The position numbers and the translations under genes were made by a program. From the NCBI GenBank assembly GCA_021846965.1, contig JAJZWA010000002.1:62001-126000 (forward strand): DNA of 64,000 bases, read 5' to 3'. Of the stretch, positions 6,016 to 12,231 are shown piece by piece. A model generated the notes under the pieces. It saw only the letters and a list, made by a program, of their open reading frames with translations, searched no databases and had not been told where the DNA came from. The stretch comes from Pseudomonadota bacterium (lineage in GTDB: Bacteria > Pseudomonadota > Gammaproteobacteria > Burkholderiales > Burkholderiaceae_C). The stretch's first letter is position 1, and each line of letters starts with the position of its first letter.

Positions 6016-7524
6016 ATGTCGCTGAAGTCTCCGTCTCCCCCCTATCCACGTTCCTTCCACGCCTTGCTGCTGGCCGCCTTCGCGCTGGTCATGCTGCCGC
6101 TGGTGGTGGGCATGCTCTACACGGCCTACGCGCAGCAGCGCCTGGCGCTGCAGACCCGCGAGGCGATCCGCATCACGGTGGACGTGACGCGCGCCACGCG
6201 CCAGGCCTCCGAGGACCTGTCGGCGCTGCAGCGCGCCGCGGGACAGTACTACGTGCTGCAGGACCCGCAGTTGCGCGTGGGCATGCGCGATGCGCATCAG
6301 GCCCTGCAAGGCGACTTGCGCACCTTGCGGACCATGCCCTTCGATGCGCAGGACCAGGCCCGGCTGCAGCGCATCGGCGTCGCGGAGGCCGCGCTGTACG
6401 ACGAGCTCGGCGGCGCCGGCCCGGCAGATCTGCCGCGATTCGATGCCTTCGCTCCGCGATTCGCCGCGCTGGCCGCGAGCATCGATCGCCTCCTGGGCGC
6501 CGGCAACCTGCTGGTGGATCGCCAGGTCGGCGAACTGGGGCGCCAGTCGCGCACGCTGCGCGCGGCGCTGCTGCTGCAGGCCGGGGCGGCCCTGCTGCTG
6601 TCGGCGCTCATCGCGGCCCTGCTGTCGTGGGTGCTCACGCGCCCGCTGCGCCAGATCGAGCAGGTCATCCGCAAGCTCGGCGCCGGGGATCTGCAGGCCC
6701 AGCCCCAGGTGCGCGGCCCGCGCGATCTGGTGCAGCTGGGCCATCAGCTGGACTGGTTGCGCAGGCGTCTGCGCGAGACCGACGAGCAGAAACAGCGCTT
6801 CCTGCGGCATGTGTCACATGAGCTGAAGACCCCGCTGGCCTCCCTGCGCGAGGGCGTCGAGCTCCTGCTCGACGGCGTGGCGGGGCCCCTGAGCGCGCAA
6901 CAGCGCGAGATCGGGACCATCATGCGCGGCAATGCCCGCGATCTCCAGCAGCGCATCGAGAACCTCATCGACTACAGTCGTGCGCAACGCCGCCTGGATC
7001 CCCTGGTGTCGGCCGGGGTGAACCTGAACGAATTGCTGGCCTCGCTCGTTCGTCGCAATGAGCTGGCGCTGCGGGCCAAGCATGTCGCCGTGCAGATCGA
7101 CGGCGAGGCTACCGCCCTGCAGGCGGACCAGGGCAAGCTCGACACCCTGTTCGAGAATCTGTTGATCAACGCCATGCGCTTCAGCCCGGCCGCGGGCGTG
7201 GTGCGCATCCGCCTGCGCGACGACGGCGAGGCCGTCACGGTCAGCATCAGCGACGACGGCCCCGGCGTGGCCGAGCAGGATCGGGAGCATCTGTTCGAGC
7301 CTTTTTTCCAGGGCATGCGCCAGCCCGCGGGCGCCGCCCCGGGCAACGGGCTCGGCCTGGCCATCGCACAGGAATACGCGGCGCTTCACGGCGGACAGAT
7401 CCGGCTTTGTGAAAAATCCGAAGGCAGCGGCGCCTGCTTCTGCGTGCGCCTGCCGCATCTGCACGACCCCGTCCCGCCCGCTTTCGCGGCGCCGGCCCGG
7501 AACCCCATGCCTTCCCGAACATGA
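6016..7524 (+). CDS. glrK: Sensor histidine kinase GlrK (QseE-like)
   Basis: This 502-aa protein has a first membrane segment (about residues 14-38), a periplasmic region of about 150 residues, a second membrane segment (about 188-212) and a HAMP linker. The HisKA box FLRHVSHELKTP gives phospho-acceptor His268. An ATPase domain follows with NLLINAMRFSP, DDGPGV and GNGLGLAIAQEY. The identification as GlrK/QseE rests mainly on context: the next two genes, each overlapping by four bases, encode a lipoprotein and a sigma-54 activator, the same order as qseE-qseG-qseF in enterobacteria. It should phosphorylate GlrR in response to an envelope signal. The gene starts 61 bases after rlmJ. Confidence 0.9.
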   Translation: MSLKSPSPPYPRSFHALLLAAFALVMLPLVVGMLYTAYAQQRLALQTREAIRITVDVTRATRQASEDLSALQRAAGQYYVLQDPQLRVGMRDAHQALQGDLRTLRTMPFDAQDQARLQRIGVAEAALYDELGGAGPADLPRFDAFAPRFAALAASIDRLLGAGNLLVDRQVGELGRQSRTLRAALLLQAGAALLLSALIAALLSWVLTRPLRQIEQVIRKLGAGDLQAQPQVRGPRDLVQLGHQLDWLRRRLRETDEQKQRFLRHVSHELKTPLASLREGVELLLDGVAGPLSAQQREIGTIMRGNARDLQQRIENLIDYSRAQRRLDPLVSAGVNLNELLASLVRRNELALRAKHVAVQIDGEATALQADQGKLDTLFENLLINAMRFSPAAGVVRIRLRDDGEAVTVSISDDGPGVAEQDREHLFEPFFQGMRQPAGAAPGNGLGLAIAQEYAALHGGQIRLCEKSEGSGACFCVRLPHLHDPVPPAFAAPARNPMPSRT

Positions 7525-8207
7525 TCCTCCTCGCGACATTCCCGCGCGCTTCGCGCCAGCTCTTGCGTGTGCTGCCCCTGGTGCTGGCCGTCTGCCTCGG
7601 CGCCTGCGCCGCGCCGCGACCAGGCGCCGGGCTGTCCGTGCCGCCGCAGGCGTCGGGCGCTCAGCGGGCCTCCGTCACGCAGCTTGGCGGCGCGCAGCTC
7701 CCGCCCCCGGCCGCTTCCGAGGCCGCCGCCCTGTCGCCTGACAGCGTCGAATTGCGCCCCGGAACCGGGCCCCTGGGCATGCAGGCCATCGCCGGGATGC
7801 TGCGCGAGGTCTCGGCCATGAGCCAGCCGGCCGCCAACCTGCGCCAGCAGCAATTGCAGGCGCTGGGCCCGCGGCGCCACCCGGAGCAGCGCCTGGAGCT
7901 GGCCTATCTGCTGATCGCGCGGGCCGCACCGACCAGCGAGGAGGCGCTGCAGGCACACGAATTGCTTGAAGGTCTGGACTTCCAGACCGAGGACCGCGCC
8001 AGCCGCCAGTTCATCCGCGTGCTGCAGCGCCTGAGCCGCCAGACCGTGGAGCTGGCGCAGGCCCGCGCCGACCTCGCGAAGGCGAACCACAAGGTCGCTG
8101 ACCTGGAGGACAAGATCGGCCAGATCAAGAACCTGGAGGTGCAATTGCAGAACCGTAGCCAGGAGCGCGCCCCGAAGCCGGTGCCGCCGAAGGGAGCCGT
8201 CCGATGA
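7521..8207 (+). CDS. Outer-membrane lipoprotein of the GlrK/GlrR system (QseG-like position)
   Basis: This 228-aa protein has a lipoprotein signal peptide with lipobox LGAC (LAVCLGACAAP, about residue 28). A Pro/Ala-rich linker and a helical C-terminal half follow; a coiled-coil-like stretch (about residues 165-215, VELAQARADLAKANHKVADLEDKIGQ) ends in a basic, Pro-rich tail. It sits between glrK and glrR with ATGA overlaps on both sides. In enterobacteria the gene in this place, qseG, encodes a lipoprotein that contacts the sensor kinase. Sequence similarity to QseG is not obvious to me, so the functional equivalence is inferred from position and lipoprotein nature. Confidence 0.8.
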   Translation: MILLATFPRASRQLLRVLPLVLAVCLGACAAPRPGAGLSVPPQASGAQRASVTQLGGAQLPPPAASEAAALSPDSVELRPGTGPLGMQAIAGMLREVSAMSQPAANLRQQQLQALGPRRHPEQRLELAYLLIARAAPTSEEALQAHELLEGLDFQTEDRASRQFIRVLQRLSRQTVELAQARADLAKANHKVADLEDKIGQIKNLEVQLQNRSQERAPKPVPPKGAVR

Positions 8208-9553
8208 GCGAGTCGTCCGCCAGCGTGCTCGTGGTCGACGACGACGCGGATTTGTTGCGCCTGCTCGACATGCGCCTGCGCTCGGCCGGCTTCCGGCCGG
8301 TGCTGGCGGGCAGCGGCGAGCAGGCTCTGGCACGCCTGGCCGTGGCACGCCCGCGCGCCGTCATCACCGACCTGCGCATGCCGGGCATGGACGGCCAGGC
8401 CCTGTTCGAGCGCATCCATGGCGCCGATCCCTCGCTGCCTGTGATCATCCTCACGGCCCACGGCACGATTCCCGATGCCGTGGCGGCGGCCCAGCGCGGG
8501 GTGTTCGGCTACCTCACCAAGCCCTTCGAGGCGACGGAGCTGCTGGACCTGCTGCGCCGGGCCGTGGGCGAGGGCGCGGCGGGTCAGCCCGCATCCGGCG
8601 AGCCGCGCCTGGCCGGCATCGTGACGGCCAGCCCGCTGATGGCGGCGCTGCTCGATGAAGTGGTGCTGGTGGGGGCCAGTCAGGCCAACGTGCTGATCCA
8701 GGGCGAGTCGGGAACCGGCAAGGAGATGCTGGCGCGGGCCGTGCACGAGGCCAGCCAGCGGCGTGGTGGGCCCTTCGTGGCCATCAACTGCGCGGCGATT
8801 CCCGAGGCACTGCTGGAATCCGAGCTGTTCGGGCACGTCAAGGGCGCCTTCACCGGCGCCGACGTGGCCCGCAAGGGCCTGTTCCAGAGCGCGGCGGGGG
8901 GCACGGTGTTCCTCGACGAGATCGGGGACATGCCGGTGGCCCTGCAGGCCAAGCTGCTGCGGGTGCTGCAGGAGCGCGAGGTCCGCCCCCTGGGCAGCCA
9001 GCAGGCGGTGCCGGTGGACGTGCGCATCGTGTCCGCCACCCACCGCGACCTGGAGGCCCTGATCGCCGAGCAGGCCTTTCGCGAGGATCTGTACTACCGG
9101 CTCAACGTGGTCAACCTGCACATTCCTCCGCTGCGCGAGCGCCGTGAGGATATCGCCGCGCTGGCGCAGCACTTCGTCAGCACCCTGGCGGCCAAGCATG
9201 GGCGCCATGTGGTGGGTTTCGCGCCCGACGCGATGGAGGCCCTGATGCGCTTCGACTGGCCGGGCAACGTACGCCAGTTGATGAACGTGGTGGAGCAATG
9301 CTGCGCCTTGTGCACGACGGTGCGCATCCCGGCCGCGCTGGTGTCGCGCGCCCTGCGCAACAAGCCGGTGGAGATCCTGAGCTATGCCGAGGCCAAGGAC
9401 CGCTTCGAGCGCGATTACCTGATCCAGCTGATGAAGCTCACCGCGGGCCAGGTGTCCGAGGCGGCGCGCCTTGCGCAGCGCAACCGCACGGAGTTCTACA
9501 GGCTGCTGCAGAAGCACGAGCTTTCGCCCGCGCTGTTCAAGCAGCCCGAGTGA
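8204..9553 (+). CDS. glrR: Sigma-54 dependent response regulator GlrR (QseF-like)
   Basis: This 449-aa protein has three domains. The receiver (about 1-125) carries Asp12-14 and phospho-acceptor Asp56 in ITDLRMPGMDG. The AAA+ domain (about 140-370) carries Walker A GESGTGKE, the sigma-54-contacting loop GAFTGAD, Walker B GTVFLDEIGDM and the arginine-containing FREDLYYRLNV. The Fis-type helix-turn-helix is at the C-terminus (about 410-445, AARLAQRNRTEFYRLLQKH). As an enhancer-binding protein it should activate -24/-12 promoters. Sites fitting the enterobacterial GlrR consensus (TGTC-N10-GACA) and a sigma-54 promoter lie directly downstream at 9596-9788, in front of a small exported-protein gene. 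It is translationally coupled to the lipoprotein gene. Confidence 0.93.
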   Translation: MSESSASVLVVDDDADLLRLLDMRLRSAGFRPVLAGSGEQALARLAVARPRAVITDLRMPGMDGQALFERIHGADPSLPVIILTAHGTIPDAVAAAQRGVFGYLTKPFEATELLDLLRRAVGEGAAGQPASGEPRLAGIVTASPLMAALLDEVVLVGASQANVLIQGESGTGKEMLARAVHEASQRRGGPFVAINCAAIPEALLESELFGHVKGAFTGADVARKGLFQSAAGGTVFLDEIGDMPVALQAKLLRVLQEREVRPLGSQQAVPVDVRIVSATHRDLEALIAEQAFREDLYYRLNVVNLHIPPLRERREDIAALAQHFVSTLAAKHGRHVVGFAPDAMEALMRFDWPGNVRQLMNVVEQCCALCTTVRIPAALVSRALRNKPVEILSYAEAKDRFERDYLIQLMKLTAGQVSEAARLAQRNRTEFYRLLQKHELSPALFKQPE

Positions 9554-9595
9554 CCCGGCGCCCCTGTCGCCGGGGGCGCCGGGAGGGGGCTGCCA

Positions 9596-9613
9596 TGTCG
9601 CTGCATGGCGACA
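9596..9613. promoter_or_regulatory. GlrR binding site 1 (perfect TGTC-N10-GACA)
   Basis: TGTC at 9596-9599 and GACA at 9610-9613 are separated by exactly ten bases, a perfect match to the consensus described for GlrR/QseF in enterobacteria. The site starts 43 bases after the glrR stop and is followed by an A-run. Its centre is 63 bp from site 2, six helical turns, so both dimers would face the same side of the DNA. Confidence 0.75.
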
Positions 9614-9658
9614 AAAAAGGTCTTTTGCGGCGCTGAGTTGGCCCGATGGGCCCCAAAG

Positions 9659-9676
9659 CGTCGGCGTGTGGCGACA
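9659..9676. promoter_or_regulatory. GlrR binding site 2 (CGTC-N10-GACA, one mismatch)
   Basis: CGTC at 9659-9662 and GACA at 9673-9676 with a ten-base spacer match the GlrR consensus at seven of eight half-site positions. The right flank (GGCGACAAAA) is the same in site 1, giving a direct repeat of the half-site with its A-tail. The centre is about 131 bases upstream of the predicted start of transcription, a usual distance for sigma-54 enhancers. Confidence 0.7.
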
Positions 9677-9740
9677 AAACCACCGTGCCGACCCCCTTCG
9701 ATCAGCTCCCGCAACCGGGCCCCGATCGGGGCTGCCAGGC

Positions 9741-9753
9741 CAACTTCTTGAAT
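9741..9753 (-). promoter_or_regulatory. Candidate IHF site between the GlrR sites and the sigma-54 promoter
   Basis: Read on the minus strand this is ATTCAAGAAGTTG. It matches the IHF consensus WATCAANNNNTTR at all but one of the defined positions. It lies in a locally AT-richer patch midway between GlrR site 2 and the -24 element, the place where IHF commonly bends DNA to bring an enhancer-bound activator to sigma-54 RNA polymerase. Confidence 0.5.
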
Positions 9754-9772
9754 TTGCTGTGGAAATCGGATC

Positions 9773-9788
9773 TGGCATGGCGGTTGCT
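9773..9788 (+). promoter_or_regulatory. Sigma-54 (-24/-12) promoter
   Basis: TGGCATGGCGGTTGCT has the invariant GG (9774-9775) and GC (9786-9787) with exactly ten bases between them, and matches the fuller consensus TGGCAYR-N4-TTGCW. Transcription should start near 9799, leaving a leader of about 60 bases before the ATG of the small exported-protein gene, with AGGGAG about nine bases ahead of that ATG. Confidence 0.82.
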
Positions 9789-9858
9789 TCAAGGGAGGAG
9801 CAGACCGGCCGACGGGCAAGTGCTCCGGCAGGAACCGCAACCGCAGGGAGTTCCGACC

Positions 9859-10101
9859 ATGACCCAGTTTCGCTTGAGGACCTTGACCATCGCACTGGCA
9901 GGCTGCTGTGCGTGGGCGGGTGCGCAGGCCGCGGGCATGCCCCCGGAGTCCGCCGCCGCGGCCGCGCAGCTCGAAGCCGAGGCGGCCGCCGCGCCGGCCC
10001 AGGCCAGCGCACAGGCGCAAGGGAGCGCCGGGCACGAGCATGGCGCGACCCATGGTTCCCCGGCGCAGGCCGCTCCAGCCGCGGGCGAAGGCATGCACTG
10101 A
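9859..10101 (+). CDS. Small exported Ala/His-rich protein, predicted GlrR-sigma-54 target
   Basis: This 80-aa protein has a clear export signal: RLR then TLTIALAGCCAWAGAQA. Two processing routes are possible, a lipobox LAGC (Cys16) or a signal peptidase I site after AQA (residue 24). The mature part is almost all Ala, Gln, Glu and Gly, with a histidine cluster GHEHGATHG and a C-terminal GMH, which could bind metal. I recognise no family. An AGGGAG ribosome site precedes the ATG. The gene is flanked by a sigma-54 promoter and a strong terminator, so it is a single-gene unit. Low-complexity Ala-rich frames can be chance in this GC range; the signal sequence, ribosome site, promoter and terminator argue that it is real. 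Confidence 0.75.
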   Translation: MTQFRLRTLTIALAGCCAWAGAQAAGMPPESAAAAAQLEAEAAAAPAQASAQAQGSAGHEHGATHGSPAQAAPAAGEGMH

Positions 10102-10163
10102 TCGCGCCACCCACATCGCCCGGCGGTGCATGCAGACACCGCAGGGCTTCCGATCCCCCCTTG

Positions 10164-10190
10164 GCCAAGCCGCGTGCTTGGCATTTTTTT
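10164..10190 (+). terminator. Intrinsic terminator of the small exported-protein gene
   Basis: GCCAAGC (10164-10170), loop CGCGT and GCTTGGC (10176-10182) form a perfect seven-pair stem followed by A and seven T residues. It separates the GlrR-controlled gene from the DEAD-box helicase gene. Confidence 0.9.
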
Positions 10191-10266
10191 GCCCGTCGCC
10201 CGCGTCTTCGGCCCATGGCGCCAGCGTGTGGCGCACAATGTCGAGCCAAGTCCCAGCTTCGTAGCC

Positions 10267-12231
10267 ATGCCCGACGTCGAATCCCAGTCCCCCGTCTCCG
10301 ACGGCCCGCCCTCCGAGCCGAGCCCAGGCTTTGCCGATCTCGGCCTTCCGGAGGCCCTGCTCAGCGCGCTGCGCGACGTGGGCTACGAAAGCCCCTCGCC
10401 CATCCAGGCGGCGACCATCCCGCCCCTGCTGGAGGGGCGCGACGTGCTGGGCCAGGCGCAGACCGGCACCGGCAAGACGGCCGCTTTCGCGCTGCCCATC
10501 CTGGCGCGCGTCGACCCGGCTCGCCGCGAGACCCAGGCCCTGGTGCTGGCGCCCACGCGCGAGCTGGCCATTCAGGTGGCCGAGGCCTTCTCGCGCTATG
10601 CCTCGCATCTGGGCGGTTTCCACGTCCTTCCCGTCTACGGCGGCCAGAGCTACACGCCGCAACTGGCGGCCTTGCGCCGGGGCGCCCAGGTCGTGGTGGG
10701 AACGCCGGGGCGCATCATCGACCATCTGGATCGAGGCACCCTCAAGCTCGACTCCCTGCGCCATCTGGTGCTCGACGAGGCCGACGAGATGCTGCGCATG
10801 GGCTTCATCGACGACGTCGAGCGCATTCTCGCCAGCACGCCGCCGCAGCGCCAGGTGGCGCTGTTCTCGGCGACCATGCCCGTGGCCATCCGCGCCATCG
10901 CCCAGCGCCACCTGCGCGAGCCGGCCCAGATCACCATCAAGGCGCGCACGCGCACGGCCTCCGGAGTGCAGCAGCGCTACTGGATGGTCAGCGGCATGCA
11001 CAAGCTCGATGCGCTGACCCGCATCCTCGAGGTCGAGACCTTCGAGGCGATGATCGTGTTCGCGCGCACCAAGATGGCCACCGAGGAGCTGGCCGAGAAG
11101 CTGGCGGCACGCGGCTTCGCCACCGCCGCGCTGAATGGCGACATCCAGCAGGCGCAGCGCGAGCGCACCGTGCAGCGACTGAAGGACGGCCAGGTGGACA
11201 TCCTCGTGGCCACCGACGTGGCGGCGCGCGGCCTGGACGTCGATCGCATCAGCCATGTGGTGAACTACGACATCCCGACCGACACCGAGTCCTACGTGCA
11301 CCGCATCGGGCGCACGGGGCGAGCCGGGCGCAGCGGGCAGGCCATCCTGTTCGTCACGCCGCGCGAGCGCTACCTGCTGCAGGCCATCGAACGTGCCACG
11401 CGCCAGCGCATCGAGCCCATGCAGCTTCCCAGCGTGGAGGCGGTGAACGACCGGCGCACCGCGCGCTTTTTCGAGCGCATCAGCGAGGCGCGCGAGCAGG
11501 ACGAGGCCTTGCGCCCCTACCTCGCGCTGGTCGAACGCTATGAGCGCGAGCACAACGTGCCGGCGCTGGAGATCGCCGCGGCCCTGGCCAGCCTGCTGCA
11601 GGGCGGCAAGCCGCTGCTGCTGGGAGCCGAGGAGCAGGCGGCGCGCGCGCACGCGGTGCGCGAGCCCTACCAGAGCCGCGCCGTGCGCGAGACCCGCGCC
11701 GCGGGCGAGACGCCCCGGCCCCGGCCGTCCCGACCCGCGCCAGCCGGCGCGCCGCGCAGCCTGGAGCAACTGGCCGAGCAGGCCTTGTCGGACTTCGAGC
11801 AATCCCGGGCCGCGCAGGAGGACGAGGAGTCGCCTCGACGCAGGCGTGGGCCCCCGGGCGCGCTGAGCACCTACCGCGTGGAGATCGGGCGCGAGCACGG
11901 CGTGGAGGTGCGCAACCTGGTGGGGGCCATCGCCAACGAGACCGGGATGGACAACAGCCGCATCGGCAACATCGCGATTCGGCGTGACTACAGCCTGGTG
12001 GAGCTGCCGGCCGACATGCCGCGCGAGGTGCTGCGCATGCTGCAGCGCCTGCGCGTGCTGGGACGCCCGCTGCAGCTGACCCCGGCCGACGAGGGCGCCG
12101 CGCCGGCGCCGCGTTCCGCGGGGCCGCGCGACAGGGCGCCTTCGCGCGCGGGCGCCGCGCCGCGGGCCCCGGCGCGTGCCGCCGCGCCGCGCGCGAAGGC
12201 CCCGGCGCCCAGGCGCAAGCACGAACGCTGA
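10267..12231 (+). CDS. DEAD-box ATP-dependent RNA helicase (DeaD/CsdA type)
   Basis: This 654-aa helicase has all core motifs: the Q-motif region (YESPSPIQAATIP), motif I AQTGTGKT, Ia PTRELAIQ, II DEAD, III SAT, V VATDVAARGLDV and VI HRIGRTGRAGR. After the two RecA domains (to about residue 380) comes a Gln/Arg/Ala-rich connector and a DbpA-type RNA-binding domain (about 535-612, YRVEIGREHGVEVRNLVGAI), then a basic Ala/Pro/Arg tail. This is the layout of DeaD/CsdA, which unwinds RNA in ribosome assembly and mRNA decay. I chose the ATG at 10267 because an earlier in-frame ATG (10126) would run through the terminator just upstream. Confidence 0.93.
   Translation: MPDVESQSPVSDGPPSEPSPGFADLGLPEALLSALRDVGYESPSPIQAATIPPLLEGRDVLGQAQTGTGKTAAFALPILARVDPARRETQALVLAPTRELAIQVAEAFSRYASHLGGFHVLPVYGGQSYTPQLAALRRGAQVVVGTPGRIIDHLDRGTLKLDSLRHLVLDEADEMLRMGFIDDVERILASTPPQRQVALFSATMPVAIRAIAQRHLREPAQITIKARTRTASGVQQRYWMVSGMHKLDALTRILEVETFEAMIVFARTKMATEELAEKLAARGFATAALNGDIQQAQRERTVQRLKDGQVDILVATDVAARGLDVDRISHVVNYDIPTDTESYVHRIGRTGRAGRSGQAILFVTPRERYLLQAIERATRQRIEPMQLPSVEAVNDRRTARFFERISEAREQDEALRPYLALVERYEREHNVPALEIAAALASLLQGGKPLLLGAEEQAARAHAVREPYQSRAVRETRAAGETPRPRPSRPAPAGAPRSLEQLAEQALSDFEQSRAAQEDEESPRRRRGPPGALSTYRVEIGREHGVEVRNLVGAIANETGMDNSRIGNIAIRRDYSLVELPADMPREVLRMLQRLRVLGRPLQLTPADEGAAPAPRSAGPRDRAPSRAGAAPRAPARAAAPRAKAPAPRRKHER

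Follow-up and report, generated by a model that had tools for sequence, protein, structure and literature searches.

Downstream of glrR, in the genus to which the analysed DNA belongs, a promoter of the GlrR/sigma-54 type precedes an RNA 3′ end of nearly constant sequence. The transcript between them probably has a dual output: a small protein for export and, from its C-rich 3′ end, a small RNA (sRNA), in a layout resembling that of cpxP and CpxQ. The enterobacterial GlrKR pathway exerts its effect through the small RNA GlmY (and rpoE). The present locus suggests that GlrR came to control an RNA a second time, in a different genus, where the RNA is unrelated and coupled to an exported protein. 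It would also provide a compact example of an mRNA whose 3′ end exists as an independent sRNA gene too, the coding part being present in some close relatives and absent from others.

The window (the whole stretch of 64,000 nucleotides that was analysed) carries the features listed in Table 1. GlrR (PRK15115) is the top NCBIfam model for the regulator encoded at 8204-9553, with a score of 570.5 bits that lies under the 763-bit cut-off of the model; the gene order and the DNA boxes favour this name. The 228-aa protein encoded at 7521-8207 had no match in Pfam or NCBIfam at E 0.001. For the IHF-like and promoter sites (9741-9753 and 9773-9788) we used the consensus strings WATCAANNNNTTR and TGGCAC-N5-TTGCW, respectively. 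The box consensus, TGTCN10GACA, is stated in PMC8745638. The terminator and the C-rich element in front of it (10155-10190) formed no part of the original prediction made on this DNA.

Table 1. Features of the glrR region, in window coordinates.
Feature	Position	Strand	Basis
Sensor histidine kinase (glrK/qseE position), HAMP-HisKA-HATPase	6016..7524	+	ORF and Pfam matches; named from gene order
228-aa protein, lipobox-like N-terminus (qseG position)	7521..8207	+	ORF; putative QseG role from gene order
glrR: receiver, sigma-54 interaction, C-terminal region	8204..9553	+	Pfam, NCBIfam
GlrR-type box 1, TGTC-N10-GACA, perfect, TGTCGCTGCATGGCGACA	9596..9613	+	Direct reading
GlrR-type box 2, CGTCGGCGTGTGGCGACA, one mismatch, 63 bp from box 1	9659..9676	+	Direct reading
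IHF-like site CAACTTCTTGAAT, one mismatch to reversed WATCAANNNNTTR	9741..9753	-	Consensus scan
Sigma-54 type -24/-12 promoter TGGCATGGCGGTTGCT, one mismatch to TGGCAC-N5-TTGCW	9773..9788	+	Consensus scan
Predicted transcript, about 390 nt	9799..10190	+	Promoter and terminator; start placed from the -12 element
80-aa protein, putatively exported: signal peptide, AQAAGMP, Ala-rich tail	9859..10101	+	ORF; export predicted from N-terminus
Invariant C-rich linker CCCCCCTTG, predicted seed	10155..10163	+	Alignment, fold prediction
Terminator hairpin GCCAAGC-CGCGT-GCTTGGC, followed by an A and a T7 tail; putative 3′ end of the sRNA	10164..10190	+	Alignment

The promoter downstream of glrR

Taken singly, the elements of this promoter are not in excess in the window: boxes with at most one mismatch occur 15 times, against a shuffle mean of 16.2, and -24/-12-like sites with at most two mismatches 30 times, against 36.3 in shuffles. 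Since lone sites are at chance level, the weight rests on their combination. Among 5000 dinucleotide shuffles of positions 9554-9858, two boxes were obtained 9 times and a -24/-12 element 61 times, but both together never, nor did any shuffle yield a pair of boxes 63 or 64 bp apart. The other perfect boxes of the window (18285 and 52937) have no -24/-12-like site with at most two mismatches within 220 bp. For the IHF-like site, 2.5% of mononucleotide shuffles score equally well.

We searched for the regulator in 60 genomes, including that of the window, at E ≤1e-110. It was found in 38 of them, and is present in 26 of the 27 same-genus relatives, G016 being the exception. The window and these 26 relatives, all within the best 30 places of the search, make up the 27 genus loci considered below. 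Every one of the 27 displays at least one box and a -24/-12 element downstream of glrR, each with at most one mismatch. Two boxes are present in 22 loci, with a spacing of 63 bp in 18 and 64 bp in 4, and a single box in L102 and L106-L109. In 21 loci, an IHF-like site with no more than one mismatch was detected, 31-32 bp before the start of the -24 element in 19 and 44 bp before it in two (L100 and L101); the best IHF-like site of the remaining six has two or three mismatches. When the promoter pattern was searched across the genus, 46 matches were obtained in 26 of 28 genomes; many of these must be due to chance, because a reversed control gave 14. In the window's own genome the pattern occurs only at the position downstream of glrR, and among the 30 promoter-pattern loci that were read, paired boxes away from glrR were seen only in L120 and L128.

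Because of its conservation in all 27 genus loci, we take this promoter as settled: it is almost certainly real, and GlrR would be the protein that binds and activates it. The original prediction had described its parts, the perfect box, the one-mismatch box 63 bp away, the near-consensus IHF site and the -24/-12 element, and direct reading and scanning bear out each of them, with one mismatch in both the IHF-like site and the -24/-12 element. The comparison that it had proposed, scoring relatives for boxes and a -24/-12 element, turned out positive in all 27 genus loci.

The sigma-54 gene rpoN was found in 26 of the 28 genus genomes, including the near relatives G003, G006 and G008; it was not found in the window's draft assembly (G000) nor in G018. 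G000 does contain several genes for sigma-54 activators, and the missing rpoN is likely to correspond to an assembly gap.

Conservation of the RNA 3′ end

In all 27 genus loci, the promoter is followed by CCCCCCTTGGCCAAGC, a variable loop of 4-5 nt, GCTTGGC, an A (T in L103) and seven T. A search for the exact pattern CCCCTTGGCCAAGC-N3..8-GCTTGGC-N-T5 gave a single match in each of 27 of the 28 genus genomes, and none in 171 genomes outside the genus; the genus genome without a match is G016, where no glrR was detected either. Thirty of the 41 alignment columns are invariant, and variation is confined to the loop and flanks. All 351 pairwise comparisons show complete identity over the first 16 nt, whereas mean ungapped identity falls to 35% over the 36 nt upstream and 32% over the 30 nt downstream; at the fourfold sites of glrR, mean identity is 62%, with 5 invariant columns out of 126. 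No covariation is seen in the terminator stem across the 27 loci, the stem sequence being constant. That the stem never varies indicates a constraint on sequence going beyond the mere formation of a hairpin, and also explains why covariation gives no support. From this conservation, we consider it highly probable that a functional RNA 3′ end lies downstream of the glrR promoter.

The same element could instead belong to the next gene, deaD (start taken as 10267), and act as a regulator in its 5′ leader; it would then not be the end of a GlrR-controlled transcript. The deaD start is located 76 nt past the T-run in the window's genome; deaD lies close behind the element in 15 of the 27 loci, and 765 nt off in L114. 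However, 11 loci (L103-L113) have no deaD in the downstream DNA that was read, and there the element is unchanged, which leaves this explanation with very little probability.

Folding of the last 156 nt, or of the whole RNA where shorter, gives the C-run a mean unpaired probability of at least 0.5 in 22 of the 27 loci (0.92 in the window). It is predicted to be mostly paired in five (L095, L096, L104, L105 and L106), two of which, L095 and L096, also have no ORF for the exported protein (see below). In the six ORF-less genomes, the RNA is predicted to measure 68-142 nt. For L100-L102, folding of the RNA (70-75 nt) predicts a 5′ hairpin, the unpaired C-run and the terminator, a form in which it would resemble an Hfq-type sRNA.

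No Rfam match to the GlmY/GlmZ families was obtained in window positions 9500-10300 at E ≤1. Weak matches to SorX (E 0.41) and sX12 (E 0.54), below the gathering thresholds, were set aside. We also rejected RF02278 (S17/bdhR1) as the identity of the RNA: its covariance model has no match at the locus, and it is encoded by a separate gene of the same genome, on contig 73 (G000:C73:4218-4280). This gene was present in 25 of 25 genus genomes searched. In B. pertussis, S17 is described as an sRNA that depends on Hfq and is freed by RNase E; its C/U-rich 5′ end base-pairs close to ribosome-binding sites (PMC11722255). One clade of eight loci (L103-L110) carries GGTTGTTGTCTCCT immediately before the C-run and is thereby identical over 11 nt (TTGTCTCCTCC) to the RF02278 sRNA that the genus encodes at another place. 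For six of the eight clade members, an identity of this length was reached by 1 of 300 shuffles in three cases and by 0 of 300 in the other three. Four RNA ends from outside the clade have 7 nt in common with RF02278, a length that 25-62 of 300 shuffles reach and which is thus at chance level.

These data bear on how the RNA end might act. GlmY, the known output of GlrR/QseF, sequesters RapZ (PMC6075780 and PMC7073468), and the invariance seen here reaches into the hairpin stem, as might be expected if the RNA end were a decoy or a protein-binding RNA of the GlmY kind and not a base-pairing repressor. We consider this unlikely: the mostly unpaired C-run and the U-tail resemble a pairing Hfq sRNA, the anti-Shine-Dalgarno-like extension of one clade resembles RF02278/S17, and the GlmY family itself is unmatched in the region.

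Searching 399 genomes of the order with a covariance model of the 3′ end gave 67.9 bits for the window's own copy and 39.0 bits for the next match, and we do not claim homologues. Matches at E ≤0.05 were obtained in 98 of the 399 genomes, mostly starting at the hairpin. Twelve were inspected; several correspond to a C-rich stretch before a hairpin, and one or more fall in DNA that looks coding. A one-mismatch -24/-12-like site is present in one of the twelve and a one-mismatch box in four others, none having both. In five loci from other families of the order (L184, L188, L192, L194 and L196), CUCCCCCCUUGGCC-like stretches directly precede terminator-like hairpins, and may be either coincidental or an expression of a more general tendency of 3′ ends.

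The exported protein and the genomes without it

The original prediction placed an 80-aa exported protein behind the promoter. This part of it holds: the ORF is present, with export predicted from its N-terminus, and proteins with an N-terminal hydrophobic stretch and an A(A/G)GMP motif are encoded in 21 of the 27 genus genomes (the window and 20 of its 26 relatives). Thirteen of the 21 proteins were aligned, and six residues in A-x-A-A-G-M-P are invariant. Over the first 34 codons in seven close relatives, pairwise differences amount to 58, 66 and 155 at codon positions 1, 2 and 3, respectively; from this excess of third-position changes, the protein looks to be under selection over this part of its length.

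In six of the 27 genomes (L095, L096, L100, L101, L102 and L114) no such protein is encoded and the motif is absent. If the start has to lie beyond the promoter and the stop no more than 60 nt from where the C-run begins, none of the six has a complete ORF of more than four codons. L095, L096 and L114 do have longer frames; these read through the terminator and do not contain the motif. On the GlrR tree, absence of the ORF requires at least two separate changes by well-supported branches, whether as loss or as gain (the count of three changes for ORF presence takes in three outside rows). Among 150 family genomes, two of them from the genus (the window's own and G010), 21 had a match to the protein at E ≤0.01. 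The weak matches in the 19 genomes outside the genus revealed no convincing relative, the eight places read looking like chance frames or unrelated proteins. Defence-system models did not match the small protein.

One could suppose that the exported protein is the sole product and that the conserved 3′ element is merely a strong terminator. The AxAAGMP protein is indeed widespread, being encoded in 21 of 27 genomes, and its third-position excess among the seven relatives fits such a role. Nevertheless, six of the 27 retain promoter and terminator without the ORF, and termination as such calls for a stem and a U-run but does not require 16 nucleotides to be identical, among them six mostly unpaired C; we therefore find this explanation improbable. 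Since the protein is absent from six genomes that retain both the promoter and the RNA end, we regard the RNA as the conserved output of the locus. The original view that a protein simply takes the place of a small RNA is not supported, the strongest constraint being on an sRNA-like 3′ end found in all 27 loci, the six protein-less ones included.

Proposed mechanism, related systems and other candidate targets

In the dual-output reading, phosphorylated GlrR would bind the two boxes 63 bp apart, by analogy with the known QseF system, IHF would bend the DNA between boxes and promoter, and GlrR would activate sigma-54 polymerase at 9773-9788. The resulting transcript of about 390 nt would give rise to two products. 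The first would be the small exported protein with its conserved AxAAGMP signal-peptide junction. The second would be the 3′ end, AUCCCCCCUUGG with terminator hairpin and U-tail, probably released by RNase E and acting as an Hfq-dependent sRNA. This sRNA would repress translation by pairing of its C-rich linker with ribosome-binding sites rich in G; repression through such an anti-Shine-Dalgarno-type seed is, in our estimate, an evenly balanced proposition. In the six protein-less genomes, only the RNA would be made. The dual-output transcript may have a role in the envelope. On a broader view, a single genus would range from a coding mRNA of about 260-460 nt with an sRNA as its tail to a pure sRNA gene (down to about 70 nt), promoter and tail being kept. 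This would place a cpxP/CpxQ-like envelope arm of GlrKR between coding and non-coding, with the tail as a genus-specific sRNA family repressing mRNAs via its C-rich anti-Shine-Dalgarno-type seed; we give this broader view an even chance of being right.

The hfq gene is present in 27 of the 28 genus genomes, the window's own included. In silico searches for RNA targets, directed at G-rich start sites and glmS leaders, did not bring out a target. AAGGGGGGA before ATG gave at least 42 matches, distributed over 22 of 28 genus genomes; a reversed control, which ignores ordinary G-rich start sites, gave 12. Some of the 42 are the reverse strand of the 3′ element itself. The glmS search returned 21 places in 20 genomes; no pairing signal with glmS leaders was seen in 18 of 18 genomes, 56 of 200 shuffles being equally low in the best case.

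The CpxP protein is periplasmic, and glnA is under sigma-54 control with NtrC as regulator. According to PMC9438474, cpxP is a two-component-controlled mRNA of a stress-response protein, whose 3′ end, its most conserved part, is released as the Hfq sRNA CpxQ. The present locus differs in its sigma-54/GlrR-type control in place of CpxR, in the absence of the coding part from six of 27 genomes, and in that processing is here a prediction. GlnZ, from the glnA 3′UTR, is likewise an Hfq-dependent, RNase E-released 3′-UTR sRNA with a conserved seed (PMC9731577), features predicted for the RNA described here; its parent, in contrast, is a long enzyme mRNA. The glmY promoter of Enterobacteriaceae shares with ours the TGTC-N10-GACA boxes, IHF, sigma-54 and, as predicted here, an RNA output, and it also adjoins the kinase-lipoprotein-regulator locus (PMC6075780 and PMC8745638). 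By contrast, our promoter is downstream of glrR, a GlmY match is absent, and in most species of the genus the transcript carries a coding region for an exported protein as well. S17/bdhR1 of betaproteobacteria resembles the RNA end in its C/U-rich 5′ end, which pairs near ribosome-binding sites and lies beside a terminator (PMC11722255), such pairing being presumed here, and in the 11 nt common to the L103-L110 clade; unlike it, S17 has a sigma-A promoter and is a separate gene in the window's genome. Finally, CcaF1-CcsR of Rhodobacter couples a small protein and regulatory RNAs on one transcript via RNase E, as we propose for the GlrR transcript, but it comprises an RNA-binding DUF1127 protein, four RNAs and an RpoH promoter (PMC10253847).

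We also scanned 83 loci more widely (80, many of them with distant regulators, plus L115-L117), and in 22 of them found a pair formed by a box and a -24/-12 element, at a score inside the limit set. For eight named betaproteobacterial loci with a regulator at least 60% identical (L009, L010, L011, L012, L014, L015, L016 and L020), the pair is located just downstream of glrR in seven; in L016, the only pair is elsewhere, on the other strand. The next gene in the seven loci encodes a BON-domain protein in six and MdoG/OpgG in one, both of periplasmic type, and MdoG likewise occupies the position downstream of glrR in the family relative L116. The original proposal of envelope proteins as GlrR-driven products in betaproteobacteria is thus supported by position in seven loci, although the protein concerned varies by lineage. 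Among the literature matches listed, little was found on GlrKR output outside enterobacteria, and neither the titles nor the opening lines of the abstracts mentioned an sRNA or an exported protein next to glrR in betaproteobacteria.

The two paired-box promoters away from glrR, in L120 (G021:C2:599462) and L128 (G005:C92:3621), are second copies located upstream of a gene for a SEL1-like repeat protein (identified by eye), which suggests that this gene is a second GlrR target in their clade. On the minus strand of L009, L013 and L016, paired boxes and a -24/-12 element lie upstream of a bactofilin gene (recognized by Pfam in L009, by eye in L013 and L016), another candidate GlrR target.
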